Source of the DNA: a bacterium
Lineage (GTDB): Bacteria; Patescibacteriota; Minisyncoccia; Phycocordibacterales; UBA12079
NCBI GenBank assembly: GCA_018401295.1
Contig: JAGYLJ010000005.1
Location: 1-52,615 of the forward strand
Length of the DNA stretch: 52,615 nucleotides
Direction of reading: 5' to 3'
Made by a program: the position numbers and the translations under genes. Under the pieces are notes generated by a model. That model was not told where the DNA came from, ran no database searches, and was given only the letters and a program-made list of their open reading frames with translations. Shown here in pieces: positions 1,539 through 43,329 of this stretch; position 1 is the stretch's first letter, and each line of letters begins with the position of its first letter.

Positions 1539-2703
1539 TCAATTGTTCCCTTGTTAATTCCCCTACAAATCCTGAAGCCGGTGATATATTATATTCTTTC
1601 TGAAAATCTTTTACAGCTTGCAGAGTACAGTTACCAAAACTACCAGAAATAGGACATATATTCAAATTTGAACCAGAAGGTGGATAGAATCCTTTCTTGG
1701 CCAAAAGAAATTGCAATGCCAAAACCCCTTCATCATTATTTATTCCTTTTCTTAAATTGGAATTCCACTCGTAGGGTAAAATAACATTTTCCTTTTCTGA
1801 ACTTTTATCAAAGTAATCTAAAATACTCAAATAGGTCTGCCAGGCCATTTCTTGCAAAACGTCTTTTCTTGTATTTGAATTAGTAAATTGTGGTTCATAA
1901 ACGTAACCATATTCAATTAAAAGACCTGCTGAATCCAATGTATTGTAAGCACCCAAAGCGATGAATCCCTGTATCTCCTTTATCCCTCCTTCACTCTTTT
2001 CATATTTTAAATCACTATAGGCAGAATATTTACCTAAAAATTCTGATACTGATTCAGCAATCGAACGACTTACTTTAGAATTTGAATATTGTTTATCTGG
2101 TATATAAATAGTCAAACCAGAATATTTACCCACACCATCTGAATATCTTCCCGGATAATCATTAAAATGAACATGAATAACAATATCCATCTCATTTTCA
2201 TTTGACCATTTATTTACACCATATAGCCTTGTTGCCACTTCTGGTAATGATTTACGGTTAGAGTTAAAACCAATATCAGAATCAATTAAACCCGAATCGA
2301 CTAAAGCACTCATAAGATCCTGATTTTCCTTCTGAAAATTAAAAATATCCTCCTTGTTATTTTTTATATAAGCTAAATAATCTTCGTCATAGCCTTGTCT
2401 ATTTCTCAATAAATAAACTTGAAATAAACTCTCCTGTCGCAAATAATTGGTTAAATATTCAGCAAGTTCTACATTTAAATCTGCTTCTCTCACTCCCTCA
2501 AATTCAGTTCCCCAGTATTCATTATCATGACCTGGGACAACCAAAATTCTCACAGTTGATTTCGCTTTAAGTTGTTTCTCTGTTAGGCTATCAACAAAAA
2601 ATATTCCTGCTAACATCTCGCGAGGATTAACATCTGTATATTTTGTTAAAACAAAAATTGTTATAAACAAGAAACCAATAAAAATAAAAATTTTCTTAAA
2701 CAT
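1525..2703 (-). CDS. Secreted N-acetylmuramoyl-L-alanine amidase-like protein with C-terminal peptidoglycan-binding repeat
   Basis: VVPGHDNEYWGTEFEG..., VIHVHFNDYPG, GLLIEYGYVYE; C-terminal LQAVKDFQKEYNISPASGFVGELTREQLNE. Confidence 0.75.
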   Translation of the reverse strand: MFKKIFIFIGFLFITIFVLTKYTDVNPREMLAGIFFVDSLTEKQLKAKSTVRILVVPGHDNEYWGTEFEGVREADLNVELAEYLTNYLRQESLFQVYLLRNRQGYDEDYLAYIKNNKEDIFNFQKENQDLMSALVDSGLIDSDIGFNSNRKSLPEVATRLYGVNKWSNENEMDIVIHVHFNDYPGRYSDGVGKYSGLTIYIPDKQYSNSKVSRSIAESVSEFLGKYSAYSDLKYEKSEGGIKEIQGFIALGAYNTLDSAGLLIEYGYVYEPQFTNSNTRKDVLQEMAWQTYLSILDYFDKSSEKENVILPYEWNSNLRKGINNDEGVLALQFLLAKKGFYPPSGSNLNICPISGSFGNCTLQAVKDFQKEYNISPASGFVGELTREQLNELE

Positions 2704-2790
2704 TTCACTTTTAATTATACACTATTCATTGATTTATGTGGATAATATTGGTATAAATAAGTTGATTTTTAATTACTAATTTGAAAATTC

Positions 2791-2862
2791 GTCCCCGTAG
2801 TTCAATGGATAGAACGAAAGCCTTCTAAGCTTTAGATGTAGGTCCGATTCCTACCGGGGGCA
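2791..2862 (+). tRNA. tRNA-Arg (UCU)
   Basis: GTCCCCGTAGTTCAATGGATAGAACGAAAGCCTTCTAAGCTTTAGATGTAGGTCCGATTCCTACCGGGGGCA; anticodon loop CTTCTAA. Confidence 0.9.
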
Positions 2863-2882
2863 CAAATCGCAAAAAAACAAAA

Positions 2883-2925
2883 GCAACAGTTTAAAAACTG
2901 TTGCTTTTGTTTTTTAAAAGAGCAA
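2883..2925 (+). terminator. Rho-independent-terminator-like hairpin after tRNA-Arg
   Basis: AAAACAAAAGCAACAGTTTAAAAACTGTTGCTTTTGTTTTTT. Confidence 0.7.
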
Positions 2926-3000
2926 ACTGCTTTGCTCTTTGACGATTTGTGCGGGCACAGGCATATTTTTGCGACCCACAGGGAGCAAAAAAGCCGAGGA

Positions 3001-3089
3001 GGGGATAAAAAACAAACTGCTTTGTTTTTTATCCAGTTTTTCTGAAAGAAAAAATTTCCTATATCGAGCGAAGCGAGATAGGAAATAGG
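3001..3089 (+). repeat. tRNA-associated palindromic repeat core, copy 1
   Basis: GGGGATAAAAAACAAACTGCTTTGTTTTTTATCCAGTTTTTCTGAAAGAAAAAATTTCCTATATCGAGCGAAGCGAGATAGGAAATAGG; near-identical to 8279-8367 (reverse strand) and 23356-23445. Confidence 0.9.
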
Positions 3090-3155
3090 TGGGTCAACAA
3101 ACACTTAGATATTTTTGAGTCCGGAGGACAAAAAAAATATTTAGTGATTTGTGTG

Positions 3156-3175
3156 CGATTCCTACTGGGGGGCAC
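3156..3175 (+). repeat. tRNA-Arg 3' fragment (T-loop to acceptor end)
   Basis: CGATTCCTACTGGGGGGCAC preceded by TTAGTGATTTGTGTG; no tRNA body upstream. Closest to the end of tRNA-Arg(GCG) at 11666-11737. Confidence 0.8.
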
Positions 3176-3435
3176 AAATTGAGCAAAGCGAAATTTGGGA
3201 CCCCAGAACGAGCCAACTGCTTGGCTCGTGTTAGAAATCGAAAGCCGGAAGATGTTGCAAACAAGGAGCAACACTGAGGCGGGGTCGCGGAACACTTAGT
3301 AAGATTTTCGAGCCTGCCTGCCGATAGGCGAGGCAAAGCGGAATATATTTAGTGATTTGTGACCACATGATTATGTATACGAAGTATTCCATTAACCTAA
3401 CAAAAAAAGACCTTCCGGTCTTTTTTGTGTGTCTG

Positions 3436-3453
3436 TGGGCGATGAGGGATTTG
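3436..3453 (-). repeat. tRNA-Val 3' fragment, copy a
   Basis: TGGGCGATGAGGGATTTG then GTCAC instead of AACCCCCGACC. Confidence 0.85.
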
Positions 3454-3600
3454 GTCACAAATATTTTGCTTCGCAAAATTTCGCTACCCCGACTCGGCGA
3501 CAAGCACTCGCTTCGCTCATCTTGTATACCGCCTCCGTCTTTCAAATCCCTATCGCTCCTACAAAATCAAAAATCCCAAAGCATTCGCTTTGGGACTTAA

Positions 3601-3994
3601 GATTTTGTGGGCGATGAGGGATTTGGTCCCCAGTTCTAATTATTTTAGTTCGCTTCACTCCTAAAATAATAAGAACTCTTGACCTCGCTCAGTCATATTT
3701 TTCTTTCGCTTCGCTTCAGAAAAATATATTCCCTCGGTTCAAATCCCTATCGCTCCTACAAAATCAAAAATCCCAAAGCATTCGCTTTGGGACTTAAGAT
3801 TTTGTGGGCGATGAGGGATTTGGTCCCCAGTTCTAATTATTTTAGTTCGCTTCACTCCTAAAATAATAAGAACTCTTGACCTCGCTCAGTCATATTTTTC
3901 TTTCGCTTCGCTTCAGAAAAATATATTCCCTCGGTTCAAATCCCTATCGCTCCTACAAAATCAAAAATCCCAAAGCATTCGCTTTGGGACTTAA
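3601..3994 (-). repeat. Two tandem copies of a 197-bp unit, each with a tRNA-Val 3' fragment (3608-3625, 3805-3822)
   Basis: 3601-3797 and 3798-3994 appear identical by eye; the supplied ORFs at 3679 and 3876 share the same first 48 residues at a 197-nt offset. The intact tRNA-Val continues the register at 3995/4002. Confidence 0.92.
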
Positions 3995-4001
3995 GATTTT
4001 G

Positions 4002-4074
4002 TGGGCGATGAGGGATTTGAACCCCCGACCTTCGCAGTGTAAATGCGCTGCTCTACCAACTGAGCTAATCGCCC
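4002..4074 (-). tRNA. tRNA-Val (UAC)
   Basis: GGGCGATTAGCTCAGTTGGTAGAGCAGCGCATTTACACTGCGAAGGTCGGGGGTTCAAATCCCTCATCGCCCA. Confidence 0.93.
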
Positions 4075-4177
4075 AAGTATAATTTTACTTGGTATTGTGT
4101 ATTTAATTTTCAATTCTCTGTAAAGCGCATTTACACTTAAGTGTAAATGATAGAAACTCCACCGTTTCTATCTCCGT

Positions 4178-4195
4178 CAACTGAGCTAATCGCCC
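4178..4195 (-). repeat. tRNA-Val 5' fragment (acceptor + D arm)
   Basis: GGGCGATTAGCTCAGTTG then ACGGAGATAGAAACGGTGGAGTTTCTATC hairpin instead of the rest of the tRNA. Confidence 0.8.
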
Positions 4196-4243
4196 TTTTG
4201 TGTCCATAATTATATAGAAAAAACTAATCAAAATCAATCTAAT

Positions 4244-4834
4244 TTACAAAACAAAAATCAAGATCACAATAATCACAAAGACTACAAGAATCCAATTAAA
4301 ATATTCAAAAGCATTCTTCGCCACTTTTTTACCGAACAATTTAACAATATAACCCACAGCGAAAAATCTCAACCCCCTCCCTATCAAAGAGGCTAATAGA
4401 AATGTAAAGATATTTATATTGAAAAAACCCGCAGAGATAGTAAAAACCTTAAAAGGAATAGGAGTAAAGGCTGAAATAAAAATTGTCCAAAAGGCATTCT
4501 GAGAAAACATCTGAGAAACTGTTAACATCTGACTTTGTAAATTATAAGTATTCACAATAAACTCACCCACCAAACTAAAAAAGAAAAAACCTATCAAATA
4601 ACCAAACAATCCACCAACAACAGAAGCAACAGTAGTAATAAGAGAATAATATACCCACCTAGCTCCATTTTTTATCAAAATTGCCAAAAGGAAAACATCT
4701 GGTGGAATTACGAAAAAAGAAGCCTCTGTGAAAGAACAAATAATCAACCAAATTTTAGCCCTTCTCCCTTGAGATTTATTATCGACCCAGTCTTCAGTCC
4801 TCTCTTTTATTTTTTGTAAAAAATTTAAAATCAT
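4244..4834 (-). CDS. YqaA/DedA-like (VTT domain) membrane protein
   Basis: Multi-TM; FISAFTPIPFKVFTISAGFFNINIFTFLLASLIGRGLRFFAVGYI. Confidence 0.78.
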   Translation of the reverse strand: MILNFLQKIKERTEDWVDNKSQGRRAKIWLIICSFTEASFFVIPPDVFLLAILIKNGARWVYYSLITTVASVVGGLFGYLIGFFFFSLVGEFIVNTYNLQSQMLTVSQMFSQNAFWTIFISAFTPIPFKVFTISAGFFNINIFTFLLASLIGRGLRFFAVGYIVKLFGKKVAKNAFEYFNWILVVFVIIVILIFVL

Positions 4835-8001: not shown

Positions 8002-8020
8002 GCGGAGGGGGTGGGATTCG
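8002..8020 (-). repeat. tRNA-Ser 3' fragment, copy 1
   Basis: GCGGAGGGGGTGGGATTCG then GTCAC; adjacent palindrome ACAAAACAGTGCTTAAGCACTGTTTTGT. Confidence 0.88.
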
Positions 8021-8197
8021 GTCACTCTTATGGATATTTTATTTCGCAAGCTCATAAAATATCTCATCCCATTGACCTCCACTCGCTCGAGTTCGTCGTC
8101 GCAAGCTCTTCCTCACATACTCGCTCGGTTCGAATCCCTTACTCTCTTCTAGAAGTTAACAAAAATAAATACCTCAGTCGGTATTTATTTTTGTTAA

Positions 8198-8217
8198 TGC
8201 GGAGGGGGTGGGATTCG
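8198..8217 (-). repeat. tRNA-Ser 3' fragment, copy 2
   Basis: TGCGGAGGGGGTGGGATTCG then GTCACAAATCACTAA; adjacent palindrome AACAAAAATAAATACCTCAGTCGGTATTTATTTTTGTTAA. Confidence 0.88.
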
Positions 8218-8278
8218 GTCACAAATCACTAAGTATATTTTTTCGCTTCGCTCAAAATCTACTAAGTGTTTGCGTCCT

Positions 8279-8367
8279 CCTATTTCCTATCTCGCTTCGC
8301 TCGATAAAGGAAATTTTTTCTTTCAGAAAAACTGGATAAAAAACAAAGCAGTTTGTTTTTTATCCCC
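8279..8367 (-). repeat. tRNA-associated palindromic repeat core, copy 2
   Basis: Reverse complement GGGGATAAAAAACAAACTGCTTTGTTTTTTATCCAGTTTTTCTGAAAGAAAAAATTTCCTTTATCGAGCGAAGCGAGATAGGAAATAGG. Confidence 0.9.
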
Positions 8368-8463
8368 GACTCCCTCGCTTCGCTCAGTCCGTCTTTCGAA
8401 TTCCACCCCCTCATCAAAATGTTTGAAATTAAAATACCCCTTAAGGGGTATTTTAATTTCAAA

Positions 8464-8552
8464 TGCGGAGGGGGTGGGATTCGAACCCACGGTACAGTTT
8501 CCCGCACTCCAGTTTTCAAGACTGGCGCATTCGACCTCTCTGCCACCCCTCC
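8464..8552 (-). tRNA. tRNA-Ser (UGA)
   Basis: GGAGGGGTGGCAGAGAGGTCGAATGCGCCAGTCTTGAAAACTGGAGTGCGGGAAACTGTACCGTGGGTTCGAATCCCACCCCCTCCGCA with long variable arm. Confidence 0.94.
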
Positions 8553-23009: not shown

Positions 23010-23080
23010 CATTTTTATTTATATCTTTGAGCGAAATAGCGAAGACGGTGGAGATGAAAGCGACGTCTAGGAGCTTTCAT

Positions 23081-23248
23081 GGCTTTTAAGCTGACGGTCG
23101 CAGGTTTGATTTCTCATAAAAGCCAATTGCTTGGCTTTTATGAGAAATCAAAAAGCTTTTGAGATATTTTTGATCCTGAGCTTGCCGAAGGAGAAAAAAA
23201 TATCCAAAAGGTATACTGTTCTGTAAGAAAGATCCCTGCCGAGCGGAC
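23081..23248 (+). repeat. Partial tRNA-Lys copy split at the T-loop by about 120 bp
   Basis: GGCTTTTAAGCTGACGGTCGCAGGTTTGAT (23081-23110), 120 bp of hairpins, then GATCCCTGCCGAGCGGAC (23231-23248). Confidence 0.88.
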
Positions 23249-23355
23249 AAATGTAGCGAAGCGGAATTTGTCCGCTTGGAGAAAGCCAACTGCTTGGTTT
23301 TCGTCAGGGAGCGAAAGCCGGAATATGTTGCGACTAAAAGGAGCAACAATGAGGC

Positions 23356-23445
23356 GGGGATAAAAAAACAAACTGCTTTGTTTTTTATCCAATTTTTGCG
23401 AAGCAAAAAATTTCCCATAGCGAGCGAAGCGAGTTGGTAAATAGG
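23356..23445 (+). repeat. tRNA-associated palindromic repeat core, copy 3
   Basis: GGGGATAAAAAAACAAACTGCTTTGTTTTTTATCCAATTTTTGCGAAGCAAAAAATTTCCCATAGCGAGCGAAGCGAGTTGGTAAATAGG. Confidence 0.88.
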
Positions 23446-23589
23446 AGGACGCAAAAACTTATGGTTTTGAAGCCCACAGGGCGAACAAAATCATTAGTGA
23501 TTTGTGTACGATCCATACTCACACATCTTAACCCTAAAGCATTAACTTTAGGGTTTTAGTATTTTGTCTATGATATAATTTTATTTACA

Positions 23590-41590: not shown

Positions 41591-43329
<1,739 letters not shown>

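Follow-up and report, generated by a model that had tools for sequence, protein, structure and literature searches.

Between the genes for tRNA-Arg(TCT) and tRNA-Val(TAC), which face each other in the 52,615-nucleotide stretch of DNA analysed here (the window), lie ORF-less blocks built of tRNA fragments and palindromes. How did these pieces of tRNA genes arise, and what put them there? An earlier note, made from the letters of the window, had proposed that a small non-autonomous element inserts recurrently at tRNA 3' ends and restores the end it displaces or, as an alternative, that the blocks are a structured tRNA-trailer RNA. The window is contig C23 of G000, a Patescibacteria-type draft genome of 619 kb in 27 contigs. 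G000 and the closed genome of a relative, G005 (752,630 bp), were sampled whole, and four further genomes were sampled via their tRNA regions, giving 177 tRNAs from six related Paceibacterota-type genomes, mostly drafts. The observation was confirmed and proved larger than first noted.

Both neighbouring tRNA genes were confirmed by ARAGORN and Rfam. tRNA-Arg(TCT) is intact at 2791-2863 on the plus strand, with C56 at 2845, and tRNA-Val(TAC) is intact at 4001-4074 on the minus strand, with C56 at 4019. The modules of each lie between them on the strand of the respective tRNA. Their order is a terminator-like palindrome, an inverted tRNA 3' end, hairpins, a long imperfect hairpin (P4) and the tRNA 3' end once more, as a forward copy. 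The terminator palindromes and inverted T-arms read earlier are present. On the plus strand, a perfect palindrome with fully complementary 21-bp arms (2872-2915) directly follows tRNA-Arg. The repeat search placed an inverted copy of the tRNA-Arg 3' end and trailer (2860-2881) at 2931-2952. Nested in this first Arg module is a three-hairpin element, the core, at 3004-3092 (104.6 bits with core model R1; similar copies occur at other tRNAs), and its right end is a P4 hairpin at 3092-3155 (53.1 bits with P4 model R2) that ends in TTAGTGATTTGTG. The displaced tRNA-Arg 3' fragment follows at 3156-3175 and starts at C56, as seen by repeat search and direct reading. Arg module 2 (3176-3363) contains a side hairpin, an inverted T-arm-like segment and a P4 at 3282-3363 (R2, 28.3 bits; predicted fold); no recognisable tRNA fragment was found after this P4.

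Three Val modules lie on the minus strand: V1 (3804-4000), with a displaced Val 3' copy at 3804-3822, P4 at 3823-3882 and a terminator hairpin at about 3952-4000 (repeats, P4 model, fold); V2 (3607-3803), with the copy at 3607-3625 and P4 at 3626-3685 (repeats, P4 model); and V3, the oldest (3435-3606), with the copy at 3435-3453 (repeat search). All three displaced copies begin at C56. Two of the modules are identical 197-bp tandem units, to be read with the caution that identical tandem units in draft genomes may be mis-assembled. On the other side of tRNA-Val, a 5' module (4075-4195, minus strand) holds an inverted anticodon-arm segment at 4124-4137 and displaced tRNA positions 1-18 at 4178-4195 (repeat search). 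Elsewhere in the window, the Ser and Lys fragments mentioned earlier were confirmed, at 8002-8217 and 23231-23248. Repeat searches and folding delimited Ser module S2 (8002-8198, minus strand; displaced Ser 3' copy 8002-8020) and, together with the models, S1 (8199-8464, minus strand; displaced copy 8199-8217, P4 8218-8278, core 8276-8364). The Lys array (23011-23508, plus strand; repeats and models) comprises a broken tRNA-Lys copy at 23083-23110, the C56-type fragment, a core at 23360-23448 and a P4 at 23446-23508.

The T-loop cut, described earlier as nearly constant, is indeed fixed and could be narrowed to one nucleotide. Among the 177 tRNAs, exact starts at C56 were counted 43 times for forward 3'-end copies, compared with 4 such starts in 525 swaps in which tRNAs were paired with the flanks of other tRNAs; a further 13 forward copies began at position 55. 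The inverted 3' copies ended at positions 52-54 (59 matches), and a mirror-image system was found upstream, where copies of the tRNA 5' end stopped at D-loop position 18/19 (27 matches). At least one module feature was present at 102 of 175 tRNAs. The orientation of the modules was always that of the tRNA strand, and the tRNA part always matched the local tRNA, while the bodies were common to different tRNA types. Direct repeats of the tRNA 3' end lie at both module borders and the tRNA is restored, as is the case for tRNA-targeting integrative elements. Absence of modules from other tRNAs and scattered breakpoints had been named beforehand as results that would speak against insertion; modules were found at other tRNAs of G000 and its relatives, and the breakpoints were fixed. 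We conclude that these are very probably insertion modules at fixed tRNA breakpoints.

Syntenic sites allowed empty and occupied states to be compared directly. At tRNA-Arg-CCT, G007 is empty and G005 carries a 225-bp insert; both genomes have the same tRNA sequence, and in G005 the displaced fragment runs on into the native trailer that also follows the empty site. On the 5' side of tRNA-Thr-GGT there are no inserts in G005, one in G007 and two in G003, the second of which is interrupted by an N stretch. Every insert at this gene follows G19 and is succeeded by a complete tRNA. The insertions at both genes are clean and leave the tRNA whole, and both sites show a gene end duplicated between insert and displaced native end. 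Occupancy also varies at other syntenic tRNAs among the related genomes. In tandem arrays, older copies have lost all but the initial part of the fragment, and units can be as short as 63-65 bp. The proposal of a small, end-restoring insertion is supported by the exact breakpoints, the two syntenic pairs, the tandem growth of arrays, the fixed orientation and the conserved terminal hairpin; its restriction to 3' ends is not supported, since modules also occur on the 5' side, in the D-loop, and next to tmRNA.

The terminal hairpin is a real, covarying structure, of which TTAGTGATTTGTG, noted earlier as a conserved ending, is the 3' arm. Of 55 copies, 47 have P4 ahead of C56. A short stem that covaries (GTC..GAC, TCC..GGA or ACC..GGT) closes the hairpin. 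Its CTT..TTAG columns are invariant or nearly so, and a T.T mismatch occupies a fixed place. The covariation score was 0.635, compared with 0.205 for shuffled and 0.08-0.17 for slid alignments. Among P4 matches in families outside model building, 13 of 16 had a tRNA on the same strand 90-516 nt upstream, and four of these 13 had an exact C56 copy. The core, an addition to the module scheme first described, is about 90 nt long with three hairpins (covariation 0.297 versus 0.142 shuffled). Direct reading puts it in two places, behind GG in the D-loop of 5' modules and within T-modules, where GGGG/TCGCG becomes GGGG-core-CGC; this double placement suggests that it inserted separately and is nested in the modules. 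A tRNA is close to 41 of the 43 cores, and 40 of these 41 share the orientation of the nearest one; the remaining two are behind a tmRNA and at a contig end. An orphan P4 of G000 and orphan modules of G005 are directly behind tmRNA; overall, two orphan modules are behind tmRNA, one is at a contig end and one (G000 C24:29941) is unexplained. This last one is a P4-bearing module pair (L063:9941-10013) with no tRNA or tmRNA nearby and a LOOT RNA (RF03000) about 1.3 kb upstream. The core and P4 models each matched 7 of 380 genomes of the phylum, all within one order. Neither pattern matched in viral contigs, where no phage vector was seen.

These features bear on whether a dedicated element is needed at all. 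Template switching or recombination by the host at the terminator and T-arm palindromes could duplicate parts of tRNAs and hairpins with no special enzyme, and the exact 197-bp and 89-bp tandem repeats favour such an origin, as do inverted 3' ends beside terminators that resemble fold-back copies, for example a 31-nt inverted copy at tRNA-Glu-CTC. However, host-made duplication would have to account for a C56 start that is constant to the single nucleotide, for a right-end hairpin conserved with its invariant CTT..TTAG, and for cores common to different tRNAs and genera. We consider it unlikely.

The modules might instead be processed as tRNA-like minihelices with an RNA role, for example as decoys. 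The inverted 3' end is equivalent to the acceptor 5' strand plus the T-stem 5' strand, and the predicted fold is an acceptor/T-stem minihelix with hairpins held in its T-loop; the strong covariation and the constant tRNA strand would also suit a trailer RNA. These points keep the earlier alternative in view, but a terminator-like palindrome precedes each module, occupancy differs at the same tRNA between related genomes, and many copies are degenerate. Nor was there an Rfam match: at the gathering score the window yielded only tRNAs and SSU rRNA, and a permissive search of 2700-4300 returned miRNA- and sRNA-type palindromes below the cut-off, non-tRNA families never coming near the gathering score. 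A trailer RNA is accordingly rated improbable. Group I or group II introns and other Rfam families were also considered and had no covariance-model match. The SSU rRNA is a complete bacterial gene on the minus strand at 41753-43246.

If the modules are insertions, a small GIY-YIG endonuclease is our favoured candidate for the driver. In an unbiased count, about 11 of 26 small single-domain GIY-YIG ORFs in the family lay within approximately 250 bp of a tRNA, which has a chance probability of about 2e-9 at a 4% background. These proteins, from related loci and not from the window modules, match PF01541 with a UPF0213-like catalytic domain and have the conserved Tyr, Tyr, Arg and Glu. Typically, a 5' piece of a tRNA with a hairpin in its D-loop comes first, then the GIY-YIG ORF and then an intact tRNA. 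One such ORF in G005 lies in the T-loop of a copy of tRNA-Thr whose D-loop carries a core. A GIY-YIG ORF also follows a tRNA-Gly with an inverted 3' end. An alignment of 14 GIY-YIG proteins was too diverse for scanning the collection, and five tRNA-adjacent proteins were used instead. With this seed, which biases the proportion (69%), 55 of 80 GIY-YIG loci from many phyla had a tRNA or tmRNA no more than 400 bp away. At 40 of these 55 loci the tRNA has a second copy on the far side of the ORF, in many cases interrupted by a short palindrome. In other phyla, most breaks linked to GIY-YIG genes are palindromes in the D-loop or on the anticodon side rather than at C56. The link to modules is not strict, because no small GIY-YIG gene was found in G003, which is among the most module-rich genomes. 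A search of G000 for GIY-YIG ORFs gave none on the window contig. The association between GIY-YIG genes and tRNAs is nonetheless strong, and no description of it in bacteria was found in the open-licence literature searched.

Several details of the GIY-YIG loci were recorded on the way. In several phyla, palindromes of 14-28 bp, for example TCCGCC..GGCGGA, interrupt the tRNA copies beside these genes (L197, L203, L218, L226, L245, L251, L253, L255 and others). Small GIY-YIG genes are also framed by the inverted repeats CCCGTTAGAGATA..TATCTCTAACGGG or CCCTGTTAAATA..TATTTAACAGGG (L116, L119, L127, L134, L142 and G005 C1 at about 544,400), the right one of which encodes the GIY-YIG C-terminus (..FLSLTG) in some loci. 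ORF-less copies of the framing repeats occur at tRNA-Arg-CCT of G005 and, in G000, within a tRNA-Ile copy at its T-loop (C24:36908).

We propose that the tRNA gene would be broken open in its T-loop, immediately ahead of C56, or, for 5' modules, in the D-loop after position 18/19, and that a structured module of about 100-300 bp would enter there. A 3' module would bring a fresh tRNA end and its own terminator, and a 5' module a tRNA end and the upstream region. The tRNA would remain whole, the old end would be left as a relic beyond the module, and repeated rounds would build arrays. The cut would be made by a GIY-YIG endonuclease of the type that many bacteria have between an intact tRNA and its broken copy and would be repaired by recombination, the modules being non-autonomous followers of the enzyme. 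Judging from sequence and gene neighbourhood, we give this mechanism as a whole, endonuclease included, an even chance of being correct.

The phage enzyme SegB offers a parallel. According to the report on it, this tRNA-associated GIY-YIG enzyme cuts within tRNA genes at the motif RAWTSGAAC, and tandem amplification of a tRNA plus segB depends on SegB (PMC13096335, 2026). By our own inference, not that of the SegB authors, the reverse complement of this motif corresponds to T-arm positions 53-61 in 84 of 177 tRNAs; the motif is absent from 29 of 64 tRNAs with T-modules. The likeness lies in a GIY-YIG enzyme adjoining tRNA genes and a motif that is the reverse complement of the T-arm. SegB, however, belongs to a phage system, for which the accessible part of the report mentions neither tRNA copies broken by palindromes nor P4 hairpins nor arrays of modules. 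Presumably SegB is also longer than the small GIY-YIG proteins considered here.

Replacement gene ends are likewise brought by the mobile mORFs of fungal mitochondria, described for atp6 of Allomyces and for atp6, atp9, cox2 and nad3 of Glomus; insertion into an essential gene supplies a new end from the element and displaces the native end beyond it, and one Glomus case uses a GIY-YIG enzyme (PMC3630166). The modules similarly restore the gene end and displace the native one. Whereas mORFs sit in protein genes of mitochondria and have a resident ORF, the modules occupy bacterial tRNA and tmRNA neighbourhoods, are mostly ORF-less, and have inverted tRNA ends and structured bodies. No endonuclease ORF, nor any other, lies in the window modules; such ORFs are present only in related tRNA inserts.

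A more familiar driver would be a tyrosine recombinase that acts in trans and recombines a circular module at the T-loop. The modules share with tyrosine-recombinase islands and IMEs the tRNA target, the T-loop crossover at the 3' end, which is the textbook site, the restored end and the displaced copy, and at least one PF00589 protein was found in 9 of 11 family genomes (two in G000, neither on the window contig). In contrast to those elements, they are only about 200 bp long, carry no recombinase and also use the 5' D-loop, which does not suit a 3'-end integrase; their bodies are common to tRNA types, yet the tRNA part is always local. An integrase as the driver is less likely because closed G005 has many modules and no PF00589 match, although a tyrosine recombinase, like a reverse transcriptase, could have been lost from this genome. 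We regard classical integration as quite improbable. A reverse transcriptase as the driver is weakened by its absence from G005 as well as from G004 and G008. An integron attC-like origin was set aside, no integron-type consensus being seen and G005 having no tyrosine recombinase.

Single-strand transposition of fixed-orientation hairpin elements by an HUH/Y1 enzyme (IS200- or RAYT-like) would suit the imperfect hairpin ends, the conserved T.T mismatch, the strict orientation and the Y1 transposase genes present in 11 of 11 family genomes, but is highly improbable given that the four Y1 genes inspected had other palindromes or none at their flanks, unlike P4 or the core, and that module insertion is accompanied by a duplicated tRNA segment. 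The modules do resemble REP/RAYT and palindromic MITE-like repeats in being short, hairpin-rich, oriented and of high copy number; they differ in being bound to tRNA or tmRNA with a local tRNA copy, not dispersed. RAYT-like Y1 genes at G000 C12:26777 and G005 C1:344928 have palindromes of their own, different in each (TTTGGTAATCNGATTACCAAA and ACAGGGACCGAGTCCCTGT). Large serine recombinases were found in 6 of 6 genomes tested, the four located ones lying 2-15 kb from the nearest tRNA. Both enzyme groups are widespread and are kept as candidates, the serine recombinases having no established link to the modules.

Insertion modules that resupply the displaced tRNA end thus remain the preferred reading, and the results point to a family of small mobile elements aimed at tRNA genes, which was not found in the RNA-family database or in the open-licence papers searched. 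At the least, two covarying nucleic-acid families without an Rfam match are defined, along with the GIY-YIG/tRNA association. It is possible, though on the doubtful side, that they belong to an undescribed, minimal class of mobile elements that targets the tRNA elbow (D-loop 18/19 and T-loop 55/56) and the tmRNA T-arm, with GIY-YIG nucleases of about 85 aa in several phyla as the putative driver and, in one order of Paceibacterota, modules that lack ORFs, covary, mimic tRNA and end in a hairpin that is recognised. Essential tRNA genes of genomes of approximately 0.6-0.8 Mb have been invaded repeatedly without loss of function. If the mechanism is true, one small nuclease or hairpin module would form a minimal system for safe insertion at a universal site, the tRNA-neighbourhood mosaics of several phyla would be tied to a single cause, and the reason why tRNAs are favoured landing sites would become directly testable.

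Two further loci of G000 were observed. On C1 (L009:2214-2643), four tandem units of 89 bp, nearly exact repeats of each other, come after a tRNA-Thr; they resemble tRNA-Thr with a hairpin replacing the D/anticodon 5' part and were called tRNA-Ser(ACT) by ARAGORN. On C22 (L061:10699-12700), two tRNA-Ala modules lie about 1.6 kb apart with two ORFs between them, encoding proteins of 253 aa (NYN-type nuclease-like by eye) and 137 aa (NUDIX hydrolase-like by eye); this pair is a possible tRNA-bounded cargo island.
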